A DNA stretch of 35,849 bases from Clostridiales bacterium (GTDB taxonomy: Bacteria > Bacillota > Clostridia > Saccharofermentanales > Saccharofermentanaceae): assembly GCA_017519205.1 (NCBI GenBank), contig JAFWSW010000054.1:1-35849 (forward strand). The letters are read 5' to 3'. The position numbers and the translations under genes are program-made. The notes under the pieces are model-generated. The model saw only the letters and a program-made list of their open reading frames with translations. It did no database searches and was not told the DNA's origin. Below, piece after piece: positions 4,601 to 18,645 of this stretch (the stretch's first letter is position 1; each line of letters opens with the position of its first letter).

Positions 4601-4644
4601 GTCTCGGTGTCTGATTAAAGATAAAACTGATGGAGGTGAAGGAA

Positions 4645-4908
4645 ATGCCGAATATCAAGTCCGCATGTAAGCGAGTTAAGGTTGCTGAGAAGAAGACCTT
4701 GGCTAACAAAATGAAGAAGAGCGAGATGCGCACCATTGTCAAGAAGGCAACGGCTTCTATCGCCGCCTCTGATGATAATTCCGCAGAGCTCGTTAAGGAC
4801 GCTCAGGTTGCACTGGATAAGGCTGCTGCTAAAGGATATATCCACAAGAACGCAGCTGCTAGAAAGAAGTCCAGACTTGCTAAGGCTGCTAACGCAGCAA
4901 AAGCTTAA
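4645..4908 (+). CDS. rpsT: 30S ribosomal protein S20
   Basis: The 87-residue basic protein MPNIKSACKRVKVAEKKTL... with KGYIHKNAAARKKSRL at its end is a clear S20, a primary binder of 16S rRNA in the small subunit. An in-frame ATG at 4630 would add five residues (MEVKE), but it lies inside the ribosome binding site GGAGGTGAAGG. The ATG at 4645 has the right spacing and gives the conserved MPNIKSA start. The gene has its own promoter and a terminator straight after the stop, so it is probably a single-gene unit. Confidence 0.95.
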   Translation: MPNIKSACKRVKVAEKKTLANKMKKSEMRTIVKKATASIAASDDNSAELVKDAQVALDKAAAKGYIHKNAAARKKSRLAKAANAAKA

Positions 4909-4934: not shown

Positions 4935-4961
4935 CCCGGTTCGAAAGAGCCGGGTTTTTTT
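4935..4961 (+). terminator. Rho-independent terminator of rpsT
   Basis: An 8-bp stem (4935-4942 with 4947-4954, one G-U pair) closes on a GAAA tetraloop and is followed by seven T residues. It lies 26 bases after the rpsT stop. Confidence 0.9.
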
Positions 4962-5077: not shown

Positions 5078-5105
5078 TTGAAATATTTTTTTTGCCTTGT
5101 ATACT
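5078..5105 (+). promoter_or_regulatory. Putative promoter of the giant adhesin gene
   Basis: TTGAAA at 5078-5083 and TATACT at 5100-5105 are 16 bases apart. The start would be near 5112, leaving a leader of roughly 97 bases. This is the only longer gene-free stretch in the window (4909-5208). It otherwise holds the rpsT terminator, AT-rich DNA with the motif TTTCGAAA at about 5027 and a related ACGAAACGATTCGT-like dyad at about 4998, and a 14-bp tandem repeat before the start codon. No small gene is apparent. Confidence 0.45.
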
Positions 5106-5208: not shown

Positions 5209-8200
5209 ATGAAAAAGTTTTTCAGATCAAAGAAGTTTATTGGTGTGACCAGTGCGCTCCTGGCGACATCTCTTGTTCTCGGAACAATCGCCGTGCGGAG
5301 ATCTCAGAGAGGAATTCAAGTCGGGATCCCGACCGTGAATGCGGACTCGGATCTGATGGACTATGACTCATCGAGTCAGGTCAACTACAGTACGGTCCTC
5401 GGTCGTGCGGTGGATTACGGTATTCTGACAAGGAATCTGGAACACTTGCACCACATGCAGACGACGTTTGCTACCAGTGTATACACAGGAGGAAAGTACT
5501 CGTGTGACGCGAACCTTTCCGGTCCTGCCGCTGCACAGTTCATCGTTGCGGAGATGACAGAAGGATCCGAACTCCGTTTCAGTGATGATGTGTATAACCA
5601 GCATATGAACTATGTTGTAGATACAACGTATGAGCTGGCATATAATCCCCCGCGTATCCATAGTGCGAAACCGAATCTGATCGAAGTTCTCCCCAGAACA
5701 TATGAAAAGGATGTCCTTAATACCAATCTGGATAAGATTATCGACCATATCCAGACAGAATCTGCAGCGCTTGCAGCGAAACCGGCGATTGATGTGGATG
5801 ATGTGCTGAAAAGATCAGCCACAGACCCCAACCAGTATATTCTTGATCTGGATGACGATGCCTATGAAGGCGCTACTATTTATTTTGATGTAGAAGAAGG
5901 AAGCCCGTTCCTTACGGCGATGGGAAATAATCTGGAAATCAAGAAGAGATCCAGTACTATCATCGTGTTTAATGTCAAGGGTTCCAATGTTACCCTTAAA
6001 AATGTCAATATTACTACTGCCGGAAAAGAAAAGCAGAGTTGTACTACGAACTGGAGTTCTCCGCTGGACGAGAAGAATACATTCGTTGATCAGGAAATCG
6101 CAAGAAAGCTCATCTGGAACATGCCGGAAGCAACCGAAGTTGTCCTGGATTCATGTGCCGGTGCTTTCATTGTTCCCAGAAACGATGCACATCTTGAGGT
6201 TGCGGGTACTCCGAGTGCCGGCTGGATCGCCTGCGCAGGTACGACTACAATCGAGAAGTGTGAGTTCCACTTTGTCTTTACTGACCGTACCGAGGAAGGC
6301 AACGATGTACATAACAGTTACATGCACTTTGCCACAAAGAAGGCTTTCACCAAGGATTTCAGTCAACCGAACAAAGACGAGAATGTTCTGACAAATGTAC
6401 GTCTTCTCAAGGGTGATTACAGTTTCTCCCTTACTGAGATGACGGATGCTACTTTCAGCCAGAAAAAAGACGATGCAGGACTGAATCCGAACCCTGCAGT
6501 TGTAGATAATGATGATTTCGGTAAGGTGACCTTCCCGTCCCTGACGGTCGATGTTACAACGGTCGATCCACGCCAGCCGCTCCATCGTTACTTCAAGATC
6601 ACAGAAACTCAGAATGTTCAGAGAGATACTAAGATCACGGCTTCTACCGGTGAGATCGACATCGATATGGAGATCAGAAATATCGAGGGTATCATCCACT
6701 ACTATATTACTTCTTATCACTATGCAACTGCACAGGATAAGGCTAACGGTAATTACTATAAGAAGAATGATGCTGTTGAGATGTCCGGTACGGAGTTCTC
6801 GCTCGGCGGTTTCTATAACCTCTATGAAGTAGAAACAGCTTCTATTGAAGTCACAAAGAGAGTCGAGTTTGAAAATGATGACAGCACAGGATTCCCGACA
6901 GATAAGAAATATAAGGTAGCTATCAAGAAGGGCGCCCAGTACGTCCAGAATGATAGTTCACTCGGCGGTGCGCCGAACTATTTCGAAGTTTCTGCAGACG
7001 GAACTCTTCGAATCGATAACCTTATGCTGGGTGAATACACTATCGTAGAGGACGAGGGTGATGTCGGTGATTTTGAACTGACAACGACCTATAATTCACA
7101 GACAGTTACGCTGACTTCTAATGGTGAAGTGGGATCATCCACGATCACCAACCACTATAAGAAGGTCGATCACTCGAATGAAGCGACCCTGAAAGTTAAG
7201 AAGACGGTTGAAGTTGAAGGTGAAACAACGCTTCCGAAAGCTTTTGCGAACAAGGAATACCCGTTCATCGTGAAAGCAACCCCCACTGCCGGCGGCCAGG
7301 CTATGTGGGTCGAGAACACAAAGGGAGGTCTCGTTTACAGCCCGTCGATCATGTACGTCAAAGCGGGAGAGGAAGTAGAGATCAAGGGACTCCAGCCGGG
7401 TTACTCCTATGAAGTCGAAGAGTGGGGCGGTTATGGTCCGCAGCAGATATTCGAAGTAGCCGGATATGATTTCAAGCAGAACGATAGTACAACGAAAGTG
7501 ACTGTTCCGGCACTCGGCGCCGGAGACGTAGGAAATGCGGAACTGATCAATAAGTATGAGAAGAAAGTCGGTTATCTCCGCATTTCAAAGCGCTTCGTCG
7601 AAGCGGATATCAATAATATCCAGCAGTCATCTACGGATATTACCAATCCGGAAACCGAACTCGATCTTTCCGGACTGGTATTCCATGTTACAGGCCCCAA
7701 TGGCTTCAGCAGAGATATTACCTGGAGTGAATTTACCAACAATGAATATGTCTTTACCGATCCGGTACCGCTGGGTAAATATACGATCACAGAGACCGGA
7801 GCTGAACAGACAGGTAAAGGAAAGTATGTATTTGTTCAGGCGATCGTCGGTGATACCACTGTAGGCCCCGGCGAGAACCAGGCACATCCGAAAAACGTAG
7901 TTGTCAGAAATGCGTATAGAAATACAGAGACAAATCCGCTCCCGACAGGTAGGCTGATGATTCAGAAGTCAGTAGTACCTTCTACCGCTTCGATGACATC
8001 CTTTAATCTCCTTGTTACTACGGTGCAGAATGGTCAGACACTGTACTGCAAGTTTGACGGGACGGGTGCTTTTGTAAGCGCGGATGTAGTTGCGCAGGGC
8101 GCTGACCTGTCTGCATACAAGGTAGCCATCAACACCAATGGCGGCAATGGTAATCTCACACTTACAGGTCTTCCTATCGGAACATATACAGTATCTGAGG

Positions 8201-11200
8201 TGGAGGAAGATGCTGTGATCACCGATCAGCATCTGCAGGTAAGCTACAATAATCAGACGGTTACTTTCACAGATAATGACCGTAACAAGAATGTGAATAT
8301 CAACAACATATATTCGTCTTATTCCATTAAGGTGAAGAAGGTTGTTGCGGGTACTCCTGTATACAATAACCCGATCGAATATCCGTTCTATATCAAGTGC
8401 GGAGACCAGTTCGTTCAGGCGAACGGAACCCTCGGCAGTGACAAGTACTTCTTCTCCGTTACCGGAAATAGCGAGAAGGAGATCGTGCTGCGCCAGGGCG
8501 GCGACTATGAGGTCGTTGAGAGATTCCAGAACTGGGAATTTGACGGAACCGAAAAAGCATATGACTACAACATCAACTATACGATGACAACGACATACAG
8601 CTCGACCGGCGTGTCTATTTCCGATTCCAATCAGAGTGATGAAGTAACGATCACCAATACGTATAAGCAAAAAGCGGAAAAGGGCAGCCTGACTGTATCG
8701 AAGCAGGTAACAGGAGATGTTCCGGCTACCGGCGCACCGTCAAGCTATTCCTTCTATGTGAAGTGCGGCGACCAGTATGTTCAGGATGATACAACAGGTG
8801 CTCTGGGATCTGATCCTGTACCATTTACAGTAAGCACATCTACTCCGAAGGAGATCAAGGGACTTGCTCTCGATAAGACGTATATCGTCGAGGAAGTTGC
8901 CGTAACCGGTCTTCCGGAGGGATACACCTGTGATGCAAGCTTCGCACCGGCGTCCGTGGACCTCGATTCCACGAACAAAGATGGAGCTATCGAAATCACG
9001 AATAATTACACATACACGGCACCGGAGACAGTGGATCTTACAGTGAAGAAGATATGGGATGATAACGATAACCAGGATGGCATCCGTCCTACTGAACTGA
9101 AAGTTACACTGAAGAAGAACGGTACTACGCTCAAAGAAGTGACTCTGAATGCTGCAAACAACTGGACGGCAACAGAGAGCGGTCTTCGCAAGAAAGAAGG
9201 CGGCGTGGATATCGTTTATACCTGGGTTGAGGATGAAGCTTCTCTGCCGCAGGGCTATGCAAAGACGGATGAATCAGTCAGCACAGACGGACTGACGACA
9301 ACCTTCACAAATAAGCATACGCCGGAAACGACATCTGTAACGGTAATCAAGGATTGGGACGATAAGGGCAATGTTGCCGGCAAGCGTCCGGATTCTATCG
9401 AGATGACTCTCAGTAACGGCCGGAAGGTTACTCTGAATGCTGCAAACAACTGGACGGCAACAGTTGAGGGTCTGCCGAAGTATGCAAACGGCACTCTGAT
9501 CAACTATACATGGACTGAAGGATCGATGCCGGAGGGTTATACCCAGAAAGCTCAGACAAAGAGCGGAAGCACAACGACGATCACAAACACCTACGATCTG
9601 ACCCGTGAGAGAATCACGGCATCCGTTGAGAAGATCTGGGTAGATAACAATAATAATGACGGCAAGCGCCCGACAGGATTAACGGTTACTCTGAATCAGA
9701 ATGGCTCGAAGTATCAGGATGTGACGCTGAATGAAGCAAACGGATGGAAGGCTACAGTGAATAATCTTCCTAAGTTTGATAATGCCGGCGTTGAATACAC
9801 ATATACCTGGGTTGAGCCTTCTGTAACCGATTATACTTCGTCGAGCACGCCTGCCGGTGCGGTAATGACGTTTACCAATACGCATGCCGATGAATTGACA
9901 TCTGCTACAGTTACGAAGAACTGGGTAGATAAGGACAACAAACTCGGAAAGCGTCCTTCCAGTATTGAAATGACTCTCAGTAACGGTCAGAAAGTTACTC
10001 TGAATGCGTCAAATAACTGGACAGGAACGATCGGCAATCTGCCGAAATATGCAAACGGTACTTTGATCGACTATACCTGGTCAGAAGGATCTCTGCCGGC
10101 CGGATATACCCGTACCAATACCAAGAAAGATGCTAATGACGATACGATCACGATCATCACGAATACTTATGATATGAATACCGAGAGGATCGATGTATCC
10201 GTAACGAAGATTTGGGATGATTTCAATAACGTTGCAGGGAAGCGTCCTTCCAGCCTGACGGTTACTCTGAGCAACGGTACTCCGGTAACGCTGAATGAAG
10301 CAAACAACTGGTCCGCAACAGTCAGCGATCTTCCGAAGTATGACGCAAATGGCGATGAGATCGAGTATACCTGGACAGAAGGAACGATGCCGGAGGGATA
10401 TACCCCGGGAGCTCCTGCAAAGAGTGATACAACAACGACTCTTACCAATACCTATGATCTGACCCGCGAGAAGACGACCGCGACTGTTCATAAGGTTTGG
10501 GACGATGCAAATGATCTGGAGGGCAAGCGTCCTTCTGAGCTGACTGTCGTCCTCAAGCAGAACGGTTCGGATTACGACTCCGTATTGCTGAATGATGCGA
10601 ACGGATGGACCGCTACGATCCCGAATCTTCCGAAGTTTGATGCGGCCGGAAATGCGTTCGTATACACGTGGTCGGAGTCGGGTATTCCGTCAGAATACCA
10701 GGTCGTTTCCGCGCAGGATCAGACAGATCCGACGCTCACTACGATCACGAACACGTTTGATTTTACTACTGTTACGACTTCCGTATCGGTAGAGAAGATC
10801 TGGACCGATAACAATAATAACGATGGCAAGCGTCCGATAGAACTGGCAGTTACGCTCAAACAGAATGGTTCGTATTGCGACACCGTATTGCTGAGTGAAG
10901 CGAACGGATGGAAGTATAACTATAACGGACTGCTGAAGTACGATACTTCCGGAAGCACACCAGTCGAGTATGTATATGAATGGACAGAACCTACTGTTCC
11001 GGAATATACACCGAGTTCTTCTACAACAGGCGGAGCGACAACGTTCACCAATAAACATACAGATGAACTGACACAAGTTTCTGTAAAGAAGATTTGGGAT
11101 GATAACAACAACAGTGAAGGAAAGCGCCCGGCTACTCTGAAGGTGACATTGAACAATGGAACCGAAGTGACGCTTGATGATTCCAACAATTGGACGGCTA

Positions 11201-14200
11201 CGGTTAAGAATCTGCCGAAGTATAATAACGGCTCTGAAATCATCTATACATGGACAGAAGAGAATGTTCCGGATTATGTTATGACCGGTAACGGACCGGA
11301 TGGCACGGATCCGACACTGACTGTCATCACGAACAGATATGATGTCAATGCCGTGACGACAACTGCTTCCGTTGAGAAGGTCTGGGTCGATGACAACAAC
11401 CAGGATGGTATTCGTCCGGTAAACCTGACAGTGACCCTGCTCCAGAATGGTTCGGATTATCAGACAGTTACGCTGAGTGACGCAAACAACTGGACAGAGA
11501 CAGTGAACAACCTGCCGAAATATGACCTTACCGGCAATCAGTACACCTACAGCTGGGCTGAGCCGAGTGTAACTGGTTATAGCTCTGTTGCAACGACATC
11601 CGGCAATGACGCAACGTTCACGAATACGCATGCATCTGATCAGATCAGTGTATCTATTCAGAAGAACTGGGAGGATAAGGATAACAAACTGAGCACCCGC
11701 CCGGCGACCCTGCAGGTAACACTTAATGCGGATGGCGTGAAGTATGATGATTACACGCTGGATGAAGCCGGAAACTGGACCACATCAGTAGGCCCGCTGC
11801 CGAAGTATAAAAACGGCACGGAGATCGTCTATACCTGGGAAGAGGATCTGCAGACAGCAGGTTACACCATGACCGGTATGGCGAAAGATACTACTGATCC
11901 GAACAAAACGATCATCACAAATACCTACGATATGAATACAGAGAAGATCGACGTATCCGTAACGAAGGTTTGGGAAGACTTTAGTAATGTTGCAGGAAAG
12001 CGCCCGTCCAGCCTGACGGTTACTCTGAGCAACGGTACGGATGTTGTTCTGAATGAAGCGAACAACTGGACGGAAACGGTAAGCAATCTGCCGAAGTATG
12101 ATTCGAACGGTGATCCGATCAATTATACATGGACAGAAACTCTGCCTTCCGGATACAAAGAGGAGTCTAATACAACTTCCGGAACAGTAACAACGATCGT
12201 GAACTCCTACGACATCACTCTTGAGAAGACTACTTCGACAGTCAAGAAGGTCTGGGAGGATAACAACGACCAGGATGGTAAGCGTCCTGTATCGATCACT
12301 GTTCACCTGAAGCAGAATGGAACTTCTATCCTTGATGAAGTTCTGAACGCTTCTAACAACTGGACAGCAACAGCGGCTGATCTGCAGAAGTTCGATAGCA
12401 ATGGCGTTGCATATACTTATACATGGGAGGAGGATGCCGTAACTGATTACAACGGTACGCTTTCTACTCTGAATGGTGTGACAACGATCACGAATACGCA
12501 TGAAGCAGAGAAGACAACGCTGAGAGTCCAGAAGACATGGGATCACAAGACGAATCCTTCCACCAGCCAGCCGACTGAAGTAACGGTCGAACTCTATGCA
12601 AATAACGCATTGAAGGCGACCAGGAAACTCAACGCGTCGAACAGCTGGAGCGAAGAAGTTACTGATCTTCCGGTCTATGAGAATGGATCCGCGATCACGT
12701 ATGAGTGGAGAGAAGTTGCAGTTGCAAACTATCTGACCACATATTCGACATCCGGTAACATTACCACGATCAAGAATACCTATGATAACTCTACGGAGAA
12801 AACAGAGGTATCTGTTACAAAGGTCTGGGATGATGCGAATAACCAGGATGGCAAGCGCCCGGCTTCTGTAACTGTATATCTGAAGCAGAACACTATAACT
12901 CTTGGAGATCCGTTCGTCCTGAACGATGCTAACAACTGGACAGCAACGAAGTCCAGCCTGCCGAAGTATGATGGAGACGGAAATCTGTATGACTATACAT
13001 GGGAAGAAGCGGCCGTAGCTGACTACACGGCATCTTACTCGAAGAGTGGTACAACGACCACGATCACGAATAAGCATAACGTTGAGACGACAAAGGCTAT
13101 TGTTACCAAGAACTGGGACGATAACAATAATGCCGCAAGAAAGCGTCCTTCCAGCATCGTGATGACGCTGGTCAATGACACGACAAAGACAGTAACACTG
13201 AATGATGCGAACAACTGGACACAGCAGATCGATGGACTGCCGATGTATAAAGATGGTCAGAAGATCACGTATACGTGGACAGAAGGTTCTATGCCGGAAG
13301 GTTATCAGAAGACAGGTGAATCTGTCAGCGCAGACGGTCTGACGACAACATTTACGAACACGTATACAGCTCCGACAGGAAGCCTGAAGGTTTCGAAGTC
13401 TCTGGCGAATGCAGATTCAACGAACAAGAACAAGACGTTTGCGATCGTCATCACATTCAGCGAGGCTGTGAAGTATTCTGTAGATGGTGGAACTCCGATC
13501 GCTACAGCGGATACTACGTACACGGCGAACCTCGCGGATGGTCAGAGTGTCACGCTCGGTAATATTCCGGAGGGTGTAACGTACTCCATCTCTGAGACGA
13601 TCTCCCGTGCAGATCAGGATGCCGGATATTCGAACATCGGATACACCGGAAGCCAGTCTGCGGCCATCGTGAAGGATACGACTACGGAAGTTATCGTTAA
13701 AAACTCCTACACGAAGCCGGCTGAGTACGGTAGCCTGAAAGTAACGAAGTCTCTGGCAAATGCAGATTCTACCAATAAGAATAAGGAGTTCACGATCGCG
13801 ATCTCCTTCTCTGATGATGTCTGCTATGCCGTTGACGGCGGTACACCGATCACAACCGCTACAAGAACCTACACGGCGAACCTCGCAGATGGCAAGAGTG
13901 TCACACTCAGCAATATCCCGGTAGATGTAACCTACACGGTAAGTGAGACGATCTCTACCGACGATAAGAATGCCGGTTATTCGTTCGAAGGATTCACCGG
14001 TAATGCATCTGCGAAGATCGTGAAGGATACGACAGCTGAAGTAACTGTAAACAACAAGTACACGAAGCCCACGGAATATGTTTCCGTCAGCGTTAAGAAG
14101 GTATGGGACGATAATAACAATCAGGATGGCCTGCGTCCTACGAGTCTGAATGTGACGCTGAATAAAAACGGTTCAGCGCACTCGACAGTCACACTGACTG

Positions 14201-15720
14201 AAGCAGAAGGCTGGGAGAAGACGGTAACGAATCTGCCGAAGTATGACGGAACAACCGAGAACCAGTATACCTGGTCGGAAGATACTGTTCCTTCCGGTTA
14301 CACTCTGGTTTCGACCGTAGCAGGAACTCCGACAGTCATTACCAACTCGCATACTCCGGAAGAGATCACCGTGAGTGTAGTCAAGGTCTGGGCGGATAAG
14401 GATAATGCAGCAGGTAAGCGCCCGGCGAGCCTCAAGGTTACCCTGAATGCGGATGGTTCGAAGTATACTGAGGTCGAGCTGAGCGATGCGAACAACTGGA
14501 CAGCTTCGTTCACTGTTCCGAAGTGCAATAACGGTTCCGAGATCAACTATACCTGGGCCGAGGAAGCGCTGCCGGCCGGTTATACAAAGACATCTTCGGT
14601 AAGCGGCAACACCACGACGCTGACAAATACCTATGACCTCGCCCGTGAGAAGACACAGGCCACAGTCAAGAAGGTATGGGACGATAACAACGACCAGGCT
14701 CAGGTACGCCCGGCAAGCCTCAAGTTCACTCTGAGCAACGGAACAGAAGTTACTCTGAGTGATGCAAACAACTGGACAGAGACGGTAACGGATCTTGCGA
14801 AGTTTGATGCAGACGGCAAGCCGATCACATACACCTGGACAGAGGATGAAGCTTCTCTGCCGCAGGGATATGCGAAGACGAAGGAAGAAGTCAGTGCTGA
14901 CGGACTGACGACAACATTTACAAATACGTACACCGCTCCGGCTCCGGTCCTCGGATCCCTGAAGATCAAGAAGGTCCTCGCAGCGGATGCTCCGGCAAGT
15001 GCTTCTTCGACAACATACAACTTCACTGTCGAAGGTCCGAACGGATACAAGGTGCCTGTTTCGATCGTAGGTGCAGGCGAAGCTGAACTCAATAACCTTG
15101 AACTCGGTAAGTACACTGTTACCGAGGATGAGAAGACGGCAGAGATCGACGGCTATGAATTGAGCGTCTCGAATAACGGTCTTACGATCGAACTTACCGA
15201 TGATGTTCAGAAGACCGCTGAGATTACGAATGCGTATGCGAAGAAGACTGAGCCGACGCAGACGGATACACAGCCGACGGATACACAGCCGACAGGAACT
15301 CAGTCGACGTCTACGAGCGACACCACGACGACTCCTTCCGAGACGAATGAGACTGAGGCTCCGTCCGAGAGCACCACAACTCCGACTCCGGATAAGGAAA
15401 TCGATTCCGTGACGATCGACGATACGCCGGTCAAACCGGAAGACTACAAACTGAAGCCGAATGGTACGATCGAGTTCACACCGGAGACGATCGAAGGTCT
15501 CACTCTCGGCGTACACCGTGCGGTCATCAAGTACACAGACGGAACAACAAGGACGATCGAGTTTGAAGTTATCACCTCGTCCAGAGGCAAGCACATCGTC
15601 AAGACCGGTGATGTCGGCGGAACAAATCTTGTTCCGGTAGTTACACTCTTCAGCGTAGCTGCAGCCGCAATCGCCATCGTGATCTTCAGAAAGCGTAAGA
15701 TCGAGCGCTGTGAAGATTAA
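5209..15720 (+). CDS. Giant Cna-B repeat cell-wall adhesin (3503 aa)
   Basis: A basic N terminus with a hydrophobic stretch (residues about 10-28) forms an export signal. Residues about 50-400 resemble a choice-of-anchor-A adhesive head, with STIIVFNVKG, WNMPEATEVVLDS, GAFIVPRNDAHLEV and a following CEFHFVF. Six SpaA/DUF7601-like domains follow (about 544-1269), then fifteen Cna-B domains (1274-2720), two DUF7601-like domains (2723-2955), three Cna-B domains (2957-3242) and one more SpaA-like domain (3247-3345). The Cna-B units repeat V-x-K-x-W near the start, Y-x-W-x-E near the middle and T-N-x-Y/H at the end, consistent with Lys-Asn isopeptide bonds and a catalytic Glu. A Thr/Pro-rich stalk, an X2-like domain (3397-3457) and the sorting tail IVKTGD plus membrane segment plus FRKRK end the protein. 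AAAGGGG precedes the ATG. Sortase-anchored adhesin is very likely; the ligand is unknown. Confidence 0.9.
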   Translation: MKKFFRSKKFIGVTSALLATSLVLGTIAVRRSQRGIQVGIPTVNADSDLMDYDSSSQVNYSTVLGRAVDYGILTRNLEHLHHMQTTFATSVYTGGKYSCDANLSGPAAAQFIVAEMTEGSELRFSDDVYNQHMNYVVDTTYELAYNPPRIHSAKPNLIEVLPRTYEKDVLNTNLDKIIDHIQTESAALAAKPAIDVDDVLKRSATDPNQYILDLDDDAYEGATIYFDVEEGSPFLTAMGNNLEIKKRSSTIIVFNVKGSNVTLKNVNITTAGKEKQSCTTNWSSPLDEKNTFVDQEIARKLIWNMPEATEVVLDSCAGAFIVPRNDAHLEVAGTPSAGWIACAGTTTIEKCEFHFVFTDRTEEGNDVHNSYMHFATKKAFTKDFSQPNKDENVLTNVRLLKGDYSFSLTEMTDATFSQKKDDAGLNPNPAVVDNDDFGKVTFPSLTVDVTTVDPRQPLHRYFKITETQNVQRDTKITASTGEIDIDMEIRNIEGIIHYYITSYHYATAQDKANGNYYKKNDAVEMSGTEFSLGGFYNLYEVETASIEVTKRVEFENDDSTGFPTDKKYKVAIKKGAQYVQNDSSLGGAPNYFEVSADGTLRIDNLMLGEYTIVEDEGDVGDFELTTTYNSQTVTLTSNGEVGSSTITNHYKKVDHSNEATLKVKKTVEVEGETTLPKAFANKEYPFIVKATPTAGGQAMWVENTKGGLVYSPSIMYVKAGEEVEIKGLQPGYSYEVEEWGGYGPQQIFEVAGYDFKQNDSTTKVTVPALGAGDVGNAELINKYEKKVGYLRISKRFVEADINNIQQSSTDITNPETELDLSGLVFHVTGPNGFSRDITWSEFTNNEYVFTDPVPLGKYTITETGAEQTGKGKYVFVQAIVGDTTVGPGENQAHPKNVVVRNAYRNTETNPLPTGRLMIQKSVVPSTASMTSFNLLVTTVQNGQTLYCKFDGTGAFVSADVVAQGADLSAYKVAINTNGGNGNLTLTGLPIGTYTVSEVEEDAVITDQHLQVSYNNQTVTFTDNDRNKNVNINNIYSSYSIKVKKVVAGTPVYNNPIEYPFYIKCGDQFVQANGTLGSDKYFFSVTGNSEKEIVLRQGGDYEVVERFQNWEFDGTEKAYDYNINYTMTTTYSSTGVSISDSNQSDEVTITNTYKQKAEKGSLTVSKQVTGDVPATGAPSSYSFYVKCGDQYVQDDTTGALGSDPVPFTVSTSTPKEIKGLALDKTYIVEEVAVTGLPEGYTCDASFAPASVDLDSTNKDGAIEITNNYTYTAPETVDLTVKKIWDDNDNQDGIRPTELKVTLKKNGTTLKEVTLNAANNWTATESGLRKKEGGVDIVYTWVEDEASLPQGYAKTDESVSTDGLTTTFTNKHTPETTSVTVIKDWDDKGNVAGKRPDSIEMTLSNGRKVTLNAANNWTATVEGLPKYANGTLINYTWTEGSMPEGYTQKAQTKSGSTTTITNTYDLTRERITASVEKIWVDNNNNDGKRPTGLTVTLNQNGSKYQDVTLNEANGWKATVNNLPKFDNAGVEYTYTWVEPSVTDYTSSSTPAGAVMTFTNTHADELTSATVTKNWVDKDNKLGKRPSSIEMTLSNGQKVTLNASNNWTGTIGNLPKYANGTLIDYTWSEGSLPAGYTRTNTKKDANDDTITIITNTYDMNTERIDVSVTKIWDDFNNVAGKRPSSLTVTLSNGTPVTLNEANNWSATVSDLPKYDANGDEIEYTWTEGTMPEGYTPGAPAKSDTTTTLTNTYDLTREKTTATVHKVWDDANDLEGKRPSELTVVLKQNGSDYDSVLLNDANGWTATIPNLPKFDAAGNAFVYTWSESGIPSEYQVVSAQDQTDPTLTTITNTFDFTTVTTSVSVEKIWTDNNNNDGKRPIELAVTLKQNGSYCDTVLLSEANGWKYNYNGLLKYDTSGSTPVEYVYEWTEPTVPEYTPSSSTTGGATTFTNKHTDELTQVSVKKIWDDNNNSEGKRPATLKVTLNNGTEVTLDDSNNWTATVKNLPKYNNGSEIIYTWTEENVPDYVMTGNGPDGTDPTLTVITNRYDVNAVTTTASVEKVWVDDNNQDGIRPVNLTVTLLQNGSDYQTVTLSDANNWTETVNNLPKYDLTGNQYTYSWAEPSVTGYSSVATTSGNDATFTNTHASDQISVSIQKNWEDKDNKLSTRPATLQVTLNADGVKYDDYTLDEAGNWTTSVGPLPKYKNGTEIVYTWEEDLQTAGYTMTGMAKDTTDPNKTIITNTYDMNTEKIDVSVTKVWEDFSNVAGKRPSSLTVTLSNGTDVVLNEANNWTETVSNLPKYDSNGDPINYTWTETLPSGYKEESNTTSGTVTTIVNSYDITLEKTTSTVKKVWEDNNDQDGKRPVSITVHLKQNGTSILDEVLNASNNWTATAADLQKFDSNGVAYTYTWEEDAVTDYNGTLSTLNGVTTITNTHEAEKTTLRVQKTWDHKTNPSTSQPTEVTVELYANNALKATRKLNASNSWSEEVTDLPVYENGSAITYEWREVAVANYLTTYSTSGNITTIKNTYDNSTEKTEVSVTKVWDDANNQDGKRPASVTVYLKQNTITLGDPFVLNDANNWTATKSSLPKYDGDGNLYDYTWEEAAVADYTASYSKSGTTTTITNKHNVETTKAIVTKNWDDNNNAARKRPSSIVMTLVNDTTKTVTLNDANNWTQQIDGLPMYKDGQKITYTWTEGSMPEGYQKTGESVSADGLTTTFTNTYTAPTGSLKVSKSLANADSTNKNKTFAIVITFSEAVKYSVDGGTPIATADTTYTANLADGQSVTLGNIPEGVTYSISETISRADQDAGYSNIGYTGSQSAAIVKDTTTEVIVKNSYTKPAEYGSLKVTKSLANADSTNKNKEFTIAISFSDDVCYAVDGGTPITTATRTYTANLADGKSVTLSNIPVDVTYTVSETISTDDKNAGYSFEGFTGNASAKIVKDTTAEVTVNNKYTKPTEYVSVSVKKVWDDNNNQDGLRPTSLNVTLNKNGSAHSTVTLTEAEGWEKTVTNLPKYDGTTENQYTWSEDTVPSGYTLVSTVAGTPTVITNSHTPEEITVSVVKVWADKDNAAGKRPASLKVTLNADGSKYTEVELSDANNWTASFTVPKCNNGSEINYTWAEEALPAGYTKTSSVSGNTTTLTNTYDLAREKTQATVKKVWDDNNDQAQVRPASLKFTLSNGTEVTLSDANNWTETVTDLAKFDADGKPITYTWTEDEASLPQGYAKTKEEVSADGLTTTFTNTYTAPAPVLGSLKIKKVLAADAPASASSTTYNFTVEGPNGYKVPVSIVGAGEAELNNLELGKYTVTEDEKTAEIDGYELSVSNNGLTIELTDDVQKTAEITNAYAKKTEPTQTDTQPTDTQPTGTQSTSTSDTTTTPSETNETEAPSESTTTPTPDKEIDSVTIDDTPVKPEDYKLKPNGTIEFTPETIEGLTLGVHRAVIKYTDGTTRTIEFEVITSSRGKHIVKTGDVGGTNLVPVVTLFSVAAAAIAIVIFRKRKIERCED
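9028..13371 (+). repeat. Array of fifteen Cna-B domains (tandem coding repeats)
   Basis: Fifteen consecutive units of about 95 codons each start with V-x-K-x-W and mostly contain a D-x-x-G-K-R-P-like motif. They share DNA words such as GCAAACAACTGGAC at the same phase. Unit 13 is the most divergent (WDHKTNPSTSQP instead of the GKRP form) but keeps Lys, Glu and Asn at the bond positions. Three more units lie at about 14080-14935; the last ends with the same ADGLTTTFTNTYTAP tail as unit 15. Confidence 0.88.
13378..14075 (+). repeat. Recent tandem duplication of one DUF7601-like domain
   Basis: Two adjacent units of about 116 codons both begin GSLKV(S/T)KSLANADSTNKNK. They share VDGGTPI, TYTANLADG, SVTL-x-NIP and the ending KYTKP or SYTKP. 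They are much closer to each other than to the other six DUF7601-like units in the protein, so this copy is young. Confidence 0.85.
15262..15291 (+). repeat. 15-bp direct repeat in the Thr/Pro stalk
   Basis: ACGGATACACAGCCG occurs twice in tandem (15262-15276 and 15277-15291), encoding two T-D-T-Q-P units of the stalk before the X2-like domain. Exact in-frame repeats like this can change copy number by slippage. Confidence 0.8.
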
Positions 15721-15752
15721 GCGATCCTCTGAAACCTAAACTAAAACAAGAA

Positions 15753-15783
15753 GGGGTGTCTCACTAAGAGGCACCCCTTTTTC
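15753..15783. terminator. Terminator between the adhesin gene and tmcAL
   Basis: A 10-bp stem (15753-15762 with 15768-15777, one G-T pair) has a five-base loop and is followed on the plus strand by TTTTTCTTTT. On the minus strand the stem is followed by CTTGTTTTAG. It sits between convergent genes and may serve both, the plus strand more strongly. Confidence 0.88.
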
Positions 15784-15821: not shown

Positions 15822-17141
15822 TCAGCGGTAGAGACGGTTACGCTTGAACTGGATGACTTCGCGATGAAAATCTTCTTCAAAGGTGTTTCTTGCCTTCATA
15901 GTCCACCAGTCATGGCTTAAGCGGTCGAGCTCATCCATGCGCGAGAAGACAGGATCTTTGCTGAAGTGGCGTGCATCCGAGGCGCGGGAAAGGATCGGAA
16001 GATCGGAATCGGCGCGCATCGCTTTAAGCACATTTCTGCCTTTCTCGGAAAAGCCGAGAAGACGAAGATAGCGAGGAGAATCCAGACGCGAAAGATCCTC
16101 GTCCTTCTGTCCGACAACTAAAGATGCGAGCGAACGAAGGATGCGTGTGTAGGAAAAACACCTTGTCTCGACTGCTTCGCGGAATAAAGAAGCGATCTCC
16201 TTCTCGGAAGAATAGTGCAGAGTGCGGACTTCATTCTTAAGATGCGCCGCCAGCTGCGGACCCATATGGGCGGTCCCGGAAAGATCAGAAACATCCATCG
16301 AACGAAGGAGCGGAAGAGCGGCAGTGATCAGCTCGTTTTCACCCATCGGAATCGTGCCGGAGTTCCACTGCTGAAGCATCTCGGCAAGCATGGGAATCGG
16401 CATATAGGGGAGAAGATCGGAAGAAGACGCCAGAAACTCTCCCTTGGAAAGAGTGTTGTACTTCTCAAGGATCTTCTTGCGAATCGCGGTTGCGCTGGGA
16501 AAAGCACCCGCCTCCAGCGTCTCCTCGTGATAGGCATCCTCCCGGACGAGAAGATGCGGCGTGACAGAGGAGCCGGCGCGGTCGAGCTCGCGCAGGTAAG
16601 AAATCGCGAGGATATTATTCGGCTCGCGGATGATCTTTTCAAAGCTTTCGGCGGAGATGGGATCCGTGATATCGGATCGCGACTCGATCACGGAAGAGGC
16701 CGCCTGCTGCCAGGCTGCCGCATAGGGAAGACCGTCCTTCTGACATTTCTCAAGAGTCTCGGAAAAAGAAGGATCGGATTCAAAATCGATTTTCGCAATC
16801 GTTGAAAGATCGGATAGAGAACTGTGCTCGGCACCGAAATACAGGTCGGTGATCACTCCGCTTCGAAGAAGGGAGGGAACGGCGCCGTGCGCGAAGCGGT
16901 CGGCGGATCCGGTCGCAAAGGTGAACGGAAGCTCGAGGACCACATCCACACCGCAGGAAAGAAGGGCGCAGACACGCGATGTCCGGTCGGAGACCGCAGG
17001 GATCCCGCGCTGGACGAATTCGCCGCTCATGATGACGACGATCGGAGTCTGTTCGCCTAAGTCCTCACGGATTTTCCGGATCAGGCGGAGATGCCCGTTG
17101 TGTAAGGGATTGTATTCAGCTACGATTCCGGCGGCGTTCAT
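15822..17141 (-). CDS. tmcAL: tRNA(Met) cytidine acetate ligase
   Basis: The 439-residue protein starts MNAAGIVAEYNPLHNGHLRL, with the nucleotidyltransferase H-x-G-H motif, followed by VVIMSGEFVQRG and VDVVLELPFTFA. These are hallmarks of TmcAL (YlbM). TmcAL uses ATP and acetate to make N4-acetylcytidine at the wobble base of elongator tRNA-Met, by way of an acetyl-adenylate. The size fits the family (about 400-440). The frame is open for 54 more codons upstream, but these encode an unrelated hydrophobic stretch. The ATG at 17141 is preceded by AGGAGGAGC, so the shorter start is chosen. It is divergent from the next gene and convergent with the adhesin. Confidence 0.92.
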   Translation of the reverse strand: MNAAGIVAEYNPLHNGHLRLIRKIREDLGEQTPIVVIMSGEFVQRGIPAVSDRTSRVCALLSCGVDVVLELPFTFATGSADRFAHGAVPSLLRSGVITDLYFGAEHSSLSDLSTIAKIDFESDPSFSETLEKCQKDGLPYAAAWQQAASSVIESRSDITDPISAESFEKIIREPNNILAISYLRELDRAGSSVTPHLLVREDAYHEETLEAGAFPSATAIRKKILEKYNTLSKGEFLASSSDLLPYMPIPMLAEMLQQWNSGTIPMGENELITAALPLLRSMDVSDLSGTAHMGPQLAAHLKNEVRTLHYSSEKEIASLFREAVETRCFSYTRILRSLASLVVGQKDEDLSRLDSPRYLRLLGFSEKGRNVLKAMRADSDLPILSRASDARHFSKDPVFSRMDELDRLSHDWWTMKARNTFEEDFHREVIQFKRNRLYR

Positions 17142-17160
17142 CTTGCTCCTCCTGATAAAG

Positions 17161-17169
17161 TGGTACAAT
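17161..17169 (+). promoter_or_regulatory. Possible extended -10 promoter for the helical membrane protein
   Basis: TGG followed by TACAAT (17164-17169) forms an extended -10 element in the 70-bp divergent region. A TTGCTC at 17143-17148 is only 15 bases upstream, so the -35 is weak or unused. A second -10-like TATACT lies at 17173-17178. Confidence 0.35.
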
Positions 17170-17211
17170 AAATATACTCTATTTAGTGCTTTTCGAAAAG
17201 GAGAACCGGCC

Positions 17212-18645
17212 ATGCCGTCAATGACCTCAGTAAAATACAGTAACAAAAAGATCAGGAGGATCGCCATGATCTCCGGAATCGCTGTAGCGGCTGTGGTCCT
17301 CATCTCGGTGGGAATCTATCTCCTGATCCGGAACGGTGTGTTCTATAAGAAAACGGACACAGATGCGAAAAAGTACTCCATGACCTGGGATATGCAGCAG
17401 ATCGTTTCCGAGTCGGATGTGCATCAGGGATATATGTTTTCCAGAACGTTGAAGCTCACGTCGGAAGACCGTCTGATGGATCCGTGGGTGCTGTCCTGGT
17501 ATGTGATTCCGGGAACGACGAGAAGCGTGCCGGAGATGGAGTCGGCATATGTGGACAGCTTCGATCAGGTGCTGCTTCTGGAGTCCTACGTGAAGGAAGG
17601 GAACCGGTCAAAGGCGGAGTCTCTGATCAAGGCGATCGACGAATCCCTGACGAACGAAGACGGTTATCTTCTCGCATTCCGGAAAGCGGATGAACTTGCT
17701 TTTGGAACGGACAGGAAAAAAGCCGAAAACTGCGATGACTTTGAAAACCAGGCATATCTTCTTCTTTCTGATCCGCCGGTCTCGATGGAAGCGACCACCA
17801 GATATCTTCGCGCACTTCTTAACTTCTACGATAAGTGGGGAAACAGTAAGACCCTCGATAAGGTAAAAGCACTTGCGGAGAAGGTCTATGCTTACGGAGA
17901 TCAGACGTCTTATCGTGCGGCGGACCAGATGGCGATGCCGACACCGCTCCCGGTAACGGAAAAGAGCCTGATCACACCTATGCCGGAAGATATAGCTGAA
18001 ACGAAACCGACGGGTTCTGACGAATCGGCGGATCCGGATGCGAAAGAAACATCAGCGGAACCGAAGGATCAGCTGGTTAGTCTTTCGGGAACGGAGCTTT
18101 CTGCGATGGACCTGGATGCCATGCGCCGTGCGTCGGTGCTTCTTCCGAAGTATAAGGCGCAGTACGAGGAGACGGTCCGTATCGTAAAGGAAGGAAAGAT
18201 CTCGTCGGAACTTCCTCTTTATGCGTGGATGTATACTAAAGAAGGCGGTTACATGTACTACACCGGAAGCGCCGGAAATGTGGATCTGGTACCGTCTCTC
18301 TATGTTATGGTGCACCTGGCGGAGATCGGTCAGCTCGATGACGAAGGATATGCGTGGGTGTCCCAGCAGATCTACAACACGGGATTTCTCTACACATCCT
18401 ATAACATGATGTCCGGAGATGTCGCATCCGATGTGGAAGCCTCGGAGGCATATCCTCTGGTCCTGTATCTTTCGGTGATCAAGGGCGATGACCGGCTTTT
18501 TGAAGCAACTTATCACGCTATGACGAGAAACTACGCGACGCTCTCAACGAGCACGGCGCTCTATACGTTTTTCCGTAACGTTCCGGAATCCCGCATCGCT
18601 GTTTATGCACGCGATAATCTTCTGATGGAACTGATTCTGAAGTAG
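17212..18645 (+). CDS. Membrane-anchored extracytoplasmic helical protein, function unknown
   Basis: The chosen ATG follows AAAGGAGAA. The frame extends far upstream, but only as a shadow of tmcAL. The 477-residue protein has a basic start, one membrane segment (about 17-39) and a large outside part. Two helical blocks (about 60-240 and 295-477) flank a Pro/Thr/Asp-rich linker (PTPLPVTEKS to TSAEPKD). Spaced helices with DQVLLLESYVKEG, LYAWMYTKEGGY, HLAEIGQLDDEG and ASEAYPLVLYLSVIKGDD recall the alpha/alpha toroids of GH8-like and related glycosidases. I cannot point to sure catalytic residues. A cell-wall or glycan role is a guess. The next gene starts eight bases after its stop. Confidence 0.6.
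   Translation: MPSMTSVKYSNKKIRRIAMISGIAVAAVVLISVGIYLLIRNGVFYKKTDTDAKKYSMTWDMQQIVSESDVHQGYMFSRTLKLTSEDRLMDPWVLSWYVIPGTTRSVPEMESAYVDSFDQVLLLESYVKEGNRSKAESLIKAIDESLTNEDGYLLAFRKADELAFGTDRKKAENCDDFENQAYLLLSDPPVSMEATTRYLRALLNFYDKWGNSKTLDKVKALAEKVYAYGDQTSYRAADQMAMPTPLPVTEKSLITPMPEDIAETKPTGSDESADPDAKETSAEPKDQLVSLSGTELSAMDLDAMRRASVLLPKYKAQYEETVRIVKEGKISSELPLYAWMYTKEGGYMYYTGSAGNVDLVPSLYVMVHLAEIGQLDDEGYAWVSQQIYNTGFLYTSYNMMSGDVASDVEASEAYPLVLYLSVIKGDDRLFEATYHAMTRNYATLSTSTALYTFFRNVPESRIAVYARDNLLMELILK

Follow-up and report, generated by a model that had tools for sequence, protein, structure and literature searches.

What kind of protein is encoded by the unbroken 10.5 kb frame in this window (the whole stretch of 35,849 nucleotides that was analysed), and how does it vary between related genomes? 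The frame runs from ATG to TAA at 5209-15720 on the forward strand and encodes 3503 amino acids without interruption. We consider it about 80% probable that the product is a wall-anchored fibrillar adhesin, in which an isopeptide-locked stalk carries a replaceable head-neck cassette and the gene occupies a fixed slot. The features on which this reading depends are as follows.

4630-4908, forward: rpsT (30S ribosomal protein S20), left neighbour of the slot, conserved
4935-4954: terminator-like site of the S20 gene, preceding the promoter-like site
5078-5105, forward: promoter-like site TTGAAA-16-TATACT, by consensus only
5209-5343, forward: signal peptide region, residues 1-45, with SKKFxGxxSLVLATSLVVGTIA... 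kept genus-wide
5368-6279, forward: head domain 1, residues 54-357, PF20597 pAdhesive_15, a DUF3494 ice-binding-like solenoid by Pfam, AF2 model and fold match
6313-6843, forward: head domain 2, residues 369-545, an FctB/SpaC-like pilin domain by fold match, with the invariant triad K378/E466/N537
6829-9024, forward: neck, residues 541-1272, six SpaA/DUF7601/DUF5979-like units (D1-D6), each with Lys, Glu and Asn
9031-13371, forward: rod, residues 1275-2721, 15 tandem Cna_B units (B1-B15), each with Lys, Glu and Asn
13372-14079, forward: DUF7601 units D7-D8, residues 2722-2957
14077-14937, forward: base, three Cna_B units (B16-B18), residues 2957-3243
14941-15246, forward: base, SpaA-like unit D9, residues 3245-3346, K3255/E3306/N3341, position kept in relatives
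15247-15390, forward: Thr/Ser/Pro-rich spacer, residues 3347-3394, with a 15-base tandem repeat
15391-15597, forward: small tail domain, first read as X2-like, conserved, with no Pfam match over cut-off
15598-15717, forward: sorting signal VKTGD (motif conserved; PF00746 in 7 of 13 tails), hydrophobic segment and basic tail
15751-15779, forward: inverted repeat with a T run after it, immediately 3' of the gene, a likely terminator read by eye
15822-17303, reverse: HIGH_NTase1 nucleotidyltransferase, right neighbour of the slot, conserved

Given the E-values and the conservation of its parts, chance is ruled out as an explanation of this domain layout. The whole protein matches the Cna_B family (PF05738) with an E-value of 9e-303. 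The unit order and counts proposed in an earlier sequence-only reading held when searched with profiles: Pfam returned exactly 18 Cna_B matches, all over the curated cut-off, with 15 at 9040-13362 and three at 14086-14928. The two DUF7601 units at 13372-14079 were matched at about 2e-12 and 3e-12. At 6829-9024 (the neck, with its six units) and at 14941-15246 (the final SpaA-like unit), the matches were to DUF7601, DUF5979 or SpaA, several of them under the curated cut-off. No NCBIfam model covers the full protein, and an Rfam search of the window gave no match.

The capacity of these units to form isopeptide bonds can be predicted from their residues. A complete Lys-Glu-Asn triad is present in all 27 stalk units, namely the 18 Cna_B and nine SpaA/DUF7601-like units. 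When the Cna_B units are aligned, 11 positions are invariant, among them one Lys, one Glu and one Asn. Their best match among solved structures is the Staphylococcus aureus Cna B region (1D2O/1D2P), where the Lys and Glu align with 1D2O chain positions 99 and 160, corresponding to Lys633 and Glu694 if the chain is numbered from 535. These are listed as the bonded lysine and catalytic glutamate of 1D2O in Table 1 of PMC12617251, which treats Cna_B and DUF5979 as structurally proven isopeptide families and DUF7601 as a predicted one. The nine SpaA-like units share 15-24% identity with the reference unit, excepting one near-twin of that reference. Four of their 165 aligned columns are invariant: the Lys, the Glu, the Asn and a Tyr two residues past the Asn. 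These triads back all nine of the units of this type proposed in the sequence-only reading. In D2 and D6, the triad Glu is one of an adjacent pair, and a wider alignment favours E738 and E1229.

Conservation and modelling extend this pattern to the neck and the head. All six neck triads are kept in 19 relatives; gaps aside, the lone departure is a Val that once replaces the Glu of D6. AlphaFold2 models the neck with pLDDT 85 and pTM 0.40, and in every unit of the model Lys is in the first strand, Glu in a central one and Asn in the last. Most of the fold matches are to isopeptide pilins and adhesins, 4BUG and 4UZG among them. As predicted by this model, the neck folds as CnaB-like domains; together with the invariant triads, this bears out its earlier division into six units. 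The head had no match among the sequences of solved structures and therefore required a fold search. Its model (pLDDT 89) has two parts, the second of which (residues 369-545) resembles the pilin FctB (Z 9.8, rmsd 3.0, 121 residues); an FctA match was also obtained by fold search with the head of one relative. None of the residues K378, E466 and N537 varies among 20 homologues; in the modelled domain they fall in the first strand, a middle one and the last one. As these residues fit the pattern, the protein probably contains 28 isopeptide-type domains. The sequence-only reading had counted about 27, which stands for the stalk but misses the one in the head. Its proposal that the units form intramolecular Lys-Asn bonds is well supported by the triads, the 1D2O alignment and the neck model, and we infer such bonds on that basis.

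The gene occupies the same place across a genus of rumen Clostridia. The order rpsT, adhesin, HIGH_NTase1 is kept, and the upstream genes for YebC, a 349-residue protein, DUF6062, a YedF-like protein, SpoU and S20 are found in all loci of the genus that include that flank. Heads were detected in 21 of 23 genomes and tails in the other two; the tail was not found in five relatives (G002, G009, G013, G018, G020). Of 18 tail loci, 14 have HIGH_NTase1 next to the tail. The remainder comprise one locus cut at a contig end, a paralogue that is not in the slot, and two loci (G017, G019) with another neighbour within 1.5 kb. The terminator-like site of the S20 gene, followed by a promoter-like site before the adhesin gene, suggests a single-gene unit by consensus. 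Almost all relatives are metagenome assemblies, and the named records are mostly rumen and gut assemblies of Clostridia. Among cultured relatives, Eubacterium ruminantium ATCC 17233 has a distant head. Two frames were also observed elsewhere. The paralogue outside the slot, in G001 (L052 4397-13414), is a second head-bearing frame of 3006 amino acids; it comprises about 18 SpaA-like units, two Cna_B units and the same tail as the slot adhesin. In another genus, a head-bearing frame of G032 (L076 9773-13669) has a non-anchor tail and may be frameshifted or truncated.

While the slot is fixed, its contents do not appear to share one history. A tree of six flanking genes groups the window (G000) with G005, G007 and G011 (100/99) and G014 with G017 and G019 (100/99). 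The head tree instead unites G000, G011, G014 and G019 (100/100) against G004, G005, G007 and G017 (100/99). Imposing the flank groups on the head data was rejected (AU p 3e-29 and 3e-72), and the neck tree sides with the head against the flanks (AU p 1.4e-6). In contrast, the tree of the last 265 residues agrees with the flanks and rejects the head grouping (p 2e-56). The groups subjected to these AU tests were picked after the distances had been seen. The conflict is also visible in pairwise identities: the window and G007 are 96% identical in their flanks and 38% in their heads, and the window and G014 are 88% and 66% identical, respectively. Overall, head-neck cassettes are as low as 37-39% identical between species with 96% identical neighbouring genes. 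By eye, the signal peptides are species-like up to the cleavage region.

Because the head and neck trees conflict with the flanks while the C-terminal base agrees with them, head-neck cassettes appear to have been exchanged, and recombination that swaps them is the simplest reading of the conflict. Alternate ancient paralogues that were lost differentially at one locus could mimic such an exchange, and one genome, G001, has a second copy elsewhere.

The number and type of rod units differ, with about 20 to 27 units in the four complete members. G007 and G012 have 26-27 Cna_B units and G021 has three Cna_B and about 20 DUF7601 rod units. A base composed of Cna_B units, D9 and the tail domain is found again in relatives. 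The nearest counterparts of the window's units D7-D8 are neck unit 6 in relatives having the other head type (49-52%) and a G004 tail unit (54-55%); against the neck of the window itself they gave no significant match. It may be, speculatively, that they are the relic of a replaced neck. Taken together, a giant adhesin in a fixed slot could serve as a modular platform, with a vertically inherited signal peptide and base, exchanged head and neck, a rod rebuilt from Cna_B or DUF7601 units, and D7-D8 as the stranded end of a previous neck; we give this fuller account roughly even odds. A two-unit supra-repeat was considered for the window's Cna_B array and rejected, the lag profile being flat. 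The rods of G012 and G007 (L038, L049) differ from the window in that B13- and B14-like Cna_B types alternate over much of their length.

This variation in unit number and type between species of the genus raises the question of whether the gene encodes a Periscope Protein, in which near-identical repeats recombine, stalk length shifts rapidly within a species, and the projection of the head is set thereby. We consider this improbable. Adjacent Cna_B units of the window have a mean protein identity of 45%, the longest exact repeat within the gene is 34 nt, and the repeats thus lack the similarity that defines that class.

The protein more probably remains a single adhesin chain fixed to the wall by its C-terminus. 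It ends with VKTGD, a hydrophobic stretch and RKRK. The motif [IV]VKTGD is common to all relatives' tails found, with VKTGD invariant in 13 sequences, seven of which match the Gram-positive anchor model PF00746. It differs from the LPXTG pentapeptide in being without the Leu-Pro. The T-G motif, hydrophobic segment and basic tail of a sortase substrate are all present, and the same genome has four sortase-family matches. On these features we infer anchoring, with VKTGD as a candidate non-canonical sorting signal. The small domain preceding it had been read as X2-like; this identification found no support, since CBM_X2 was matched in only two of 13 tails (best E 0.04) and the window sequence gave no match.

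Two further regions of the genome encode surface proteins near sortases. On contig C71 (5594-11999; L060 1595-8000) there are a signal peptidase I, a DUF7601 pilin, a class B sortase and an FctA-like pilin ending in VVKTGDTG, the sorting motif also used by the window adhesin, together with a long surface-type ORF from L060 5094. On contig C110 (L058 24-2303), a fragment of a SpaA-rich surface protein with six PF17802 units, truncated at the contig start, adjoins a sortase match. The motif shared with the C71 pilin, as well as the FctB/SpaC-like fold of head domain 2, would be expected if the adhesin were a building block or tip of a sortase-polymerised pilus encoded on C71. Such a role is nonetheless unlikely: throughout the genus the gene is by itself, with conserved housekeeping genes on either side, and its 28 domains in one chain already make a fibre-like molecule.

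It is very improbable that the frame is an assembly artefact, produced by repeat collapse or the joining of two genes. Contig ends do break the gene in 17 of the 21 assemblies, compared with 7.4 expected from contig counts (P about 5e-6, under a rough Poisson model), and the window copy is one of four intact at the slot. However, the units are diverged, and collapse is unlikely in the window because its longest exact repeat is so short. Complete frames of 4061-4271 amino acids were obtained independently in three relatives, with head, neck and base in the same order. In the broken relatives, head and tail are on different contigs wherever both were found, and each contig adjoins the expected flanking genes. 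Plain exact repeats over 70 nt end the contigs of just two of the 17 broken relatives; strain variation may therefore be a further cause of broken assemblies.

At the other end of this frame, head domain 1 matches PF20597 (pAdhesive_15, "putative ice-binding-like adhesive domain") over the cut-off, with an E-value of 1.5e-10, and would place a putative adhesive domain at one end of the protein. Its predicted model (residues 54-357) aligns with ice-binding DUF3494 solenoids over 196 residues (Z 15.6, rmsd 3.0). That its ligand is ice or a crystalline mineral, as for DUF3494 proteins, is the most far-fetched of the alternatives despite this solenoid match: sequence identity is only 10-16%, Pfam names the family an ice-binding-like adhesive domain, and ice-binding activity is unlikely because the relatives come from the rumen or gut of warm-blooded animals, where there is no ice.

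On the preferred reading of a wall-anchored adhesin, the protein would be expressed as a single transcription unit from its chromosomal slot and secreted by its N-terminal signal. Sortase cleavage at [IV]VKTGD would then fix its C-terminus to peptidoglycan. About 28 CnaB-type domains would lock themselves through intramolecular Lys-Asn bonds, giving a protease- and force-resistant stalk of perhaps 0.1 micrometre. This stalk would display the ice-binding-like solenoid to a putative ligand, which in the rumen would most likely be carried by adjacent cells, by plant particles or by the host surface. Between the conserved signal peptide and wall-proximal base, the head and neck would act as a replaceable specificity cassette, and the rod would change in the number and kind of its units.

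These results add a family of very long adhesins with isopeptide stalks, found throughout a genus of rumen Clostridia. They also describe a single locus whose product appears to evolve its head specificity, the length of its stalk and its anchor independently of one another. As contig ends break the gene in most assemblies, full-length members are under-reported: short-read genome collections break it in most species, and such adhesins are under-counted and mostly seen as fragments.

No paper describing the system was found in the open-access literature on rumen isopeptide adhesins and this head family, but several known systems share parts of its design. The Staphylococcus aureus Cna B region has Cna_B units with the same Lys-Glu-Asn triad. 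Cna itself binds collagen through its head and has many fewer B units, in contrast to the 18 Cna_B units, nine SpaA-like units and solenoid head found here. A very long stiff rod, as proposed in the sequence-only reading, is plausible at most: isopeptide domains resist unfolding, yet spring-like behaviour has been reported for the Cna B region (PMC5080380). Streptococcal and lactobacillar pilins (FctB, Spy0125/Cpa, SpaA, SpaD) resemble head domain 2 and the neck units in predicted fold, but are assembled into pili by sortases, whereas the adhesin is one polypeptide. Periscope Proteins likewise have their functional domain at the N-terminus, borne on a stalk whose repeat number varies; high similarity of the repeats at the DNA level defines that class (PMC8201768), whereas the repeats here are diverged, and the variation in their number was observed between species.

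Of a comparable kind is the giant adhesin of Mobiluncus mulieris, a single chain of cross-linked domains that has 7651 residues, 51 Ig-like domains and also ester, disulfide and thioester bonds (PMC10619420). Related species are reported there to differ by an insertion of 21 isopeptide domains, and the text consulted mentions no ice-binding-like head such as that of the window protein. Closest in overall design are the fibrillar adhesins of Monzon and Bateman (PMC9210967, PMC8286594), which combine an adhesive domain, a long stalk of repeated domains and a surface anchor. The Pfam name of the head family is absent from the text of PMC9210967. With its putative adhesive PF20597 domain at one end, stalk of 27 units and surface anchoring signal, the protein is by its sequence features a fibrillar adhesin with isopeptide stalk domains, a known design (PMC9210967, PMC12617251). 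It differs from other members of this class in the apparent exchange of head and neck at one fixed locus.
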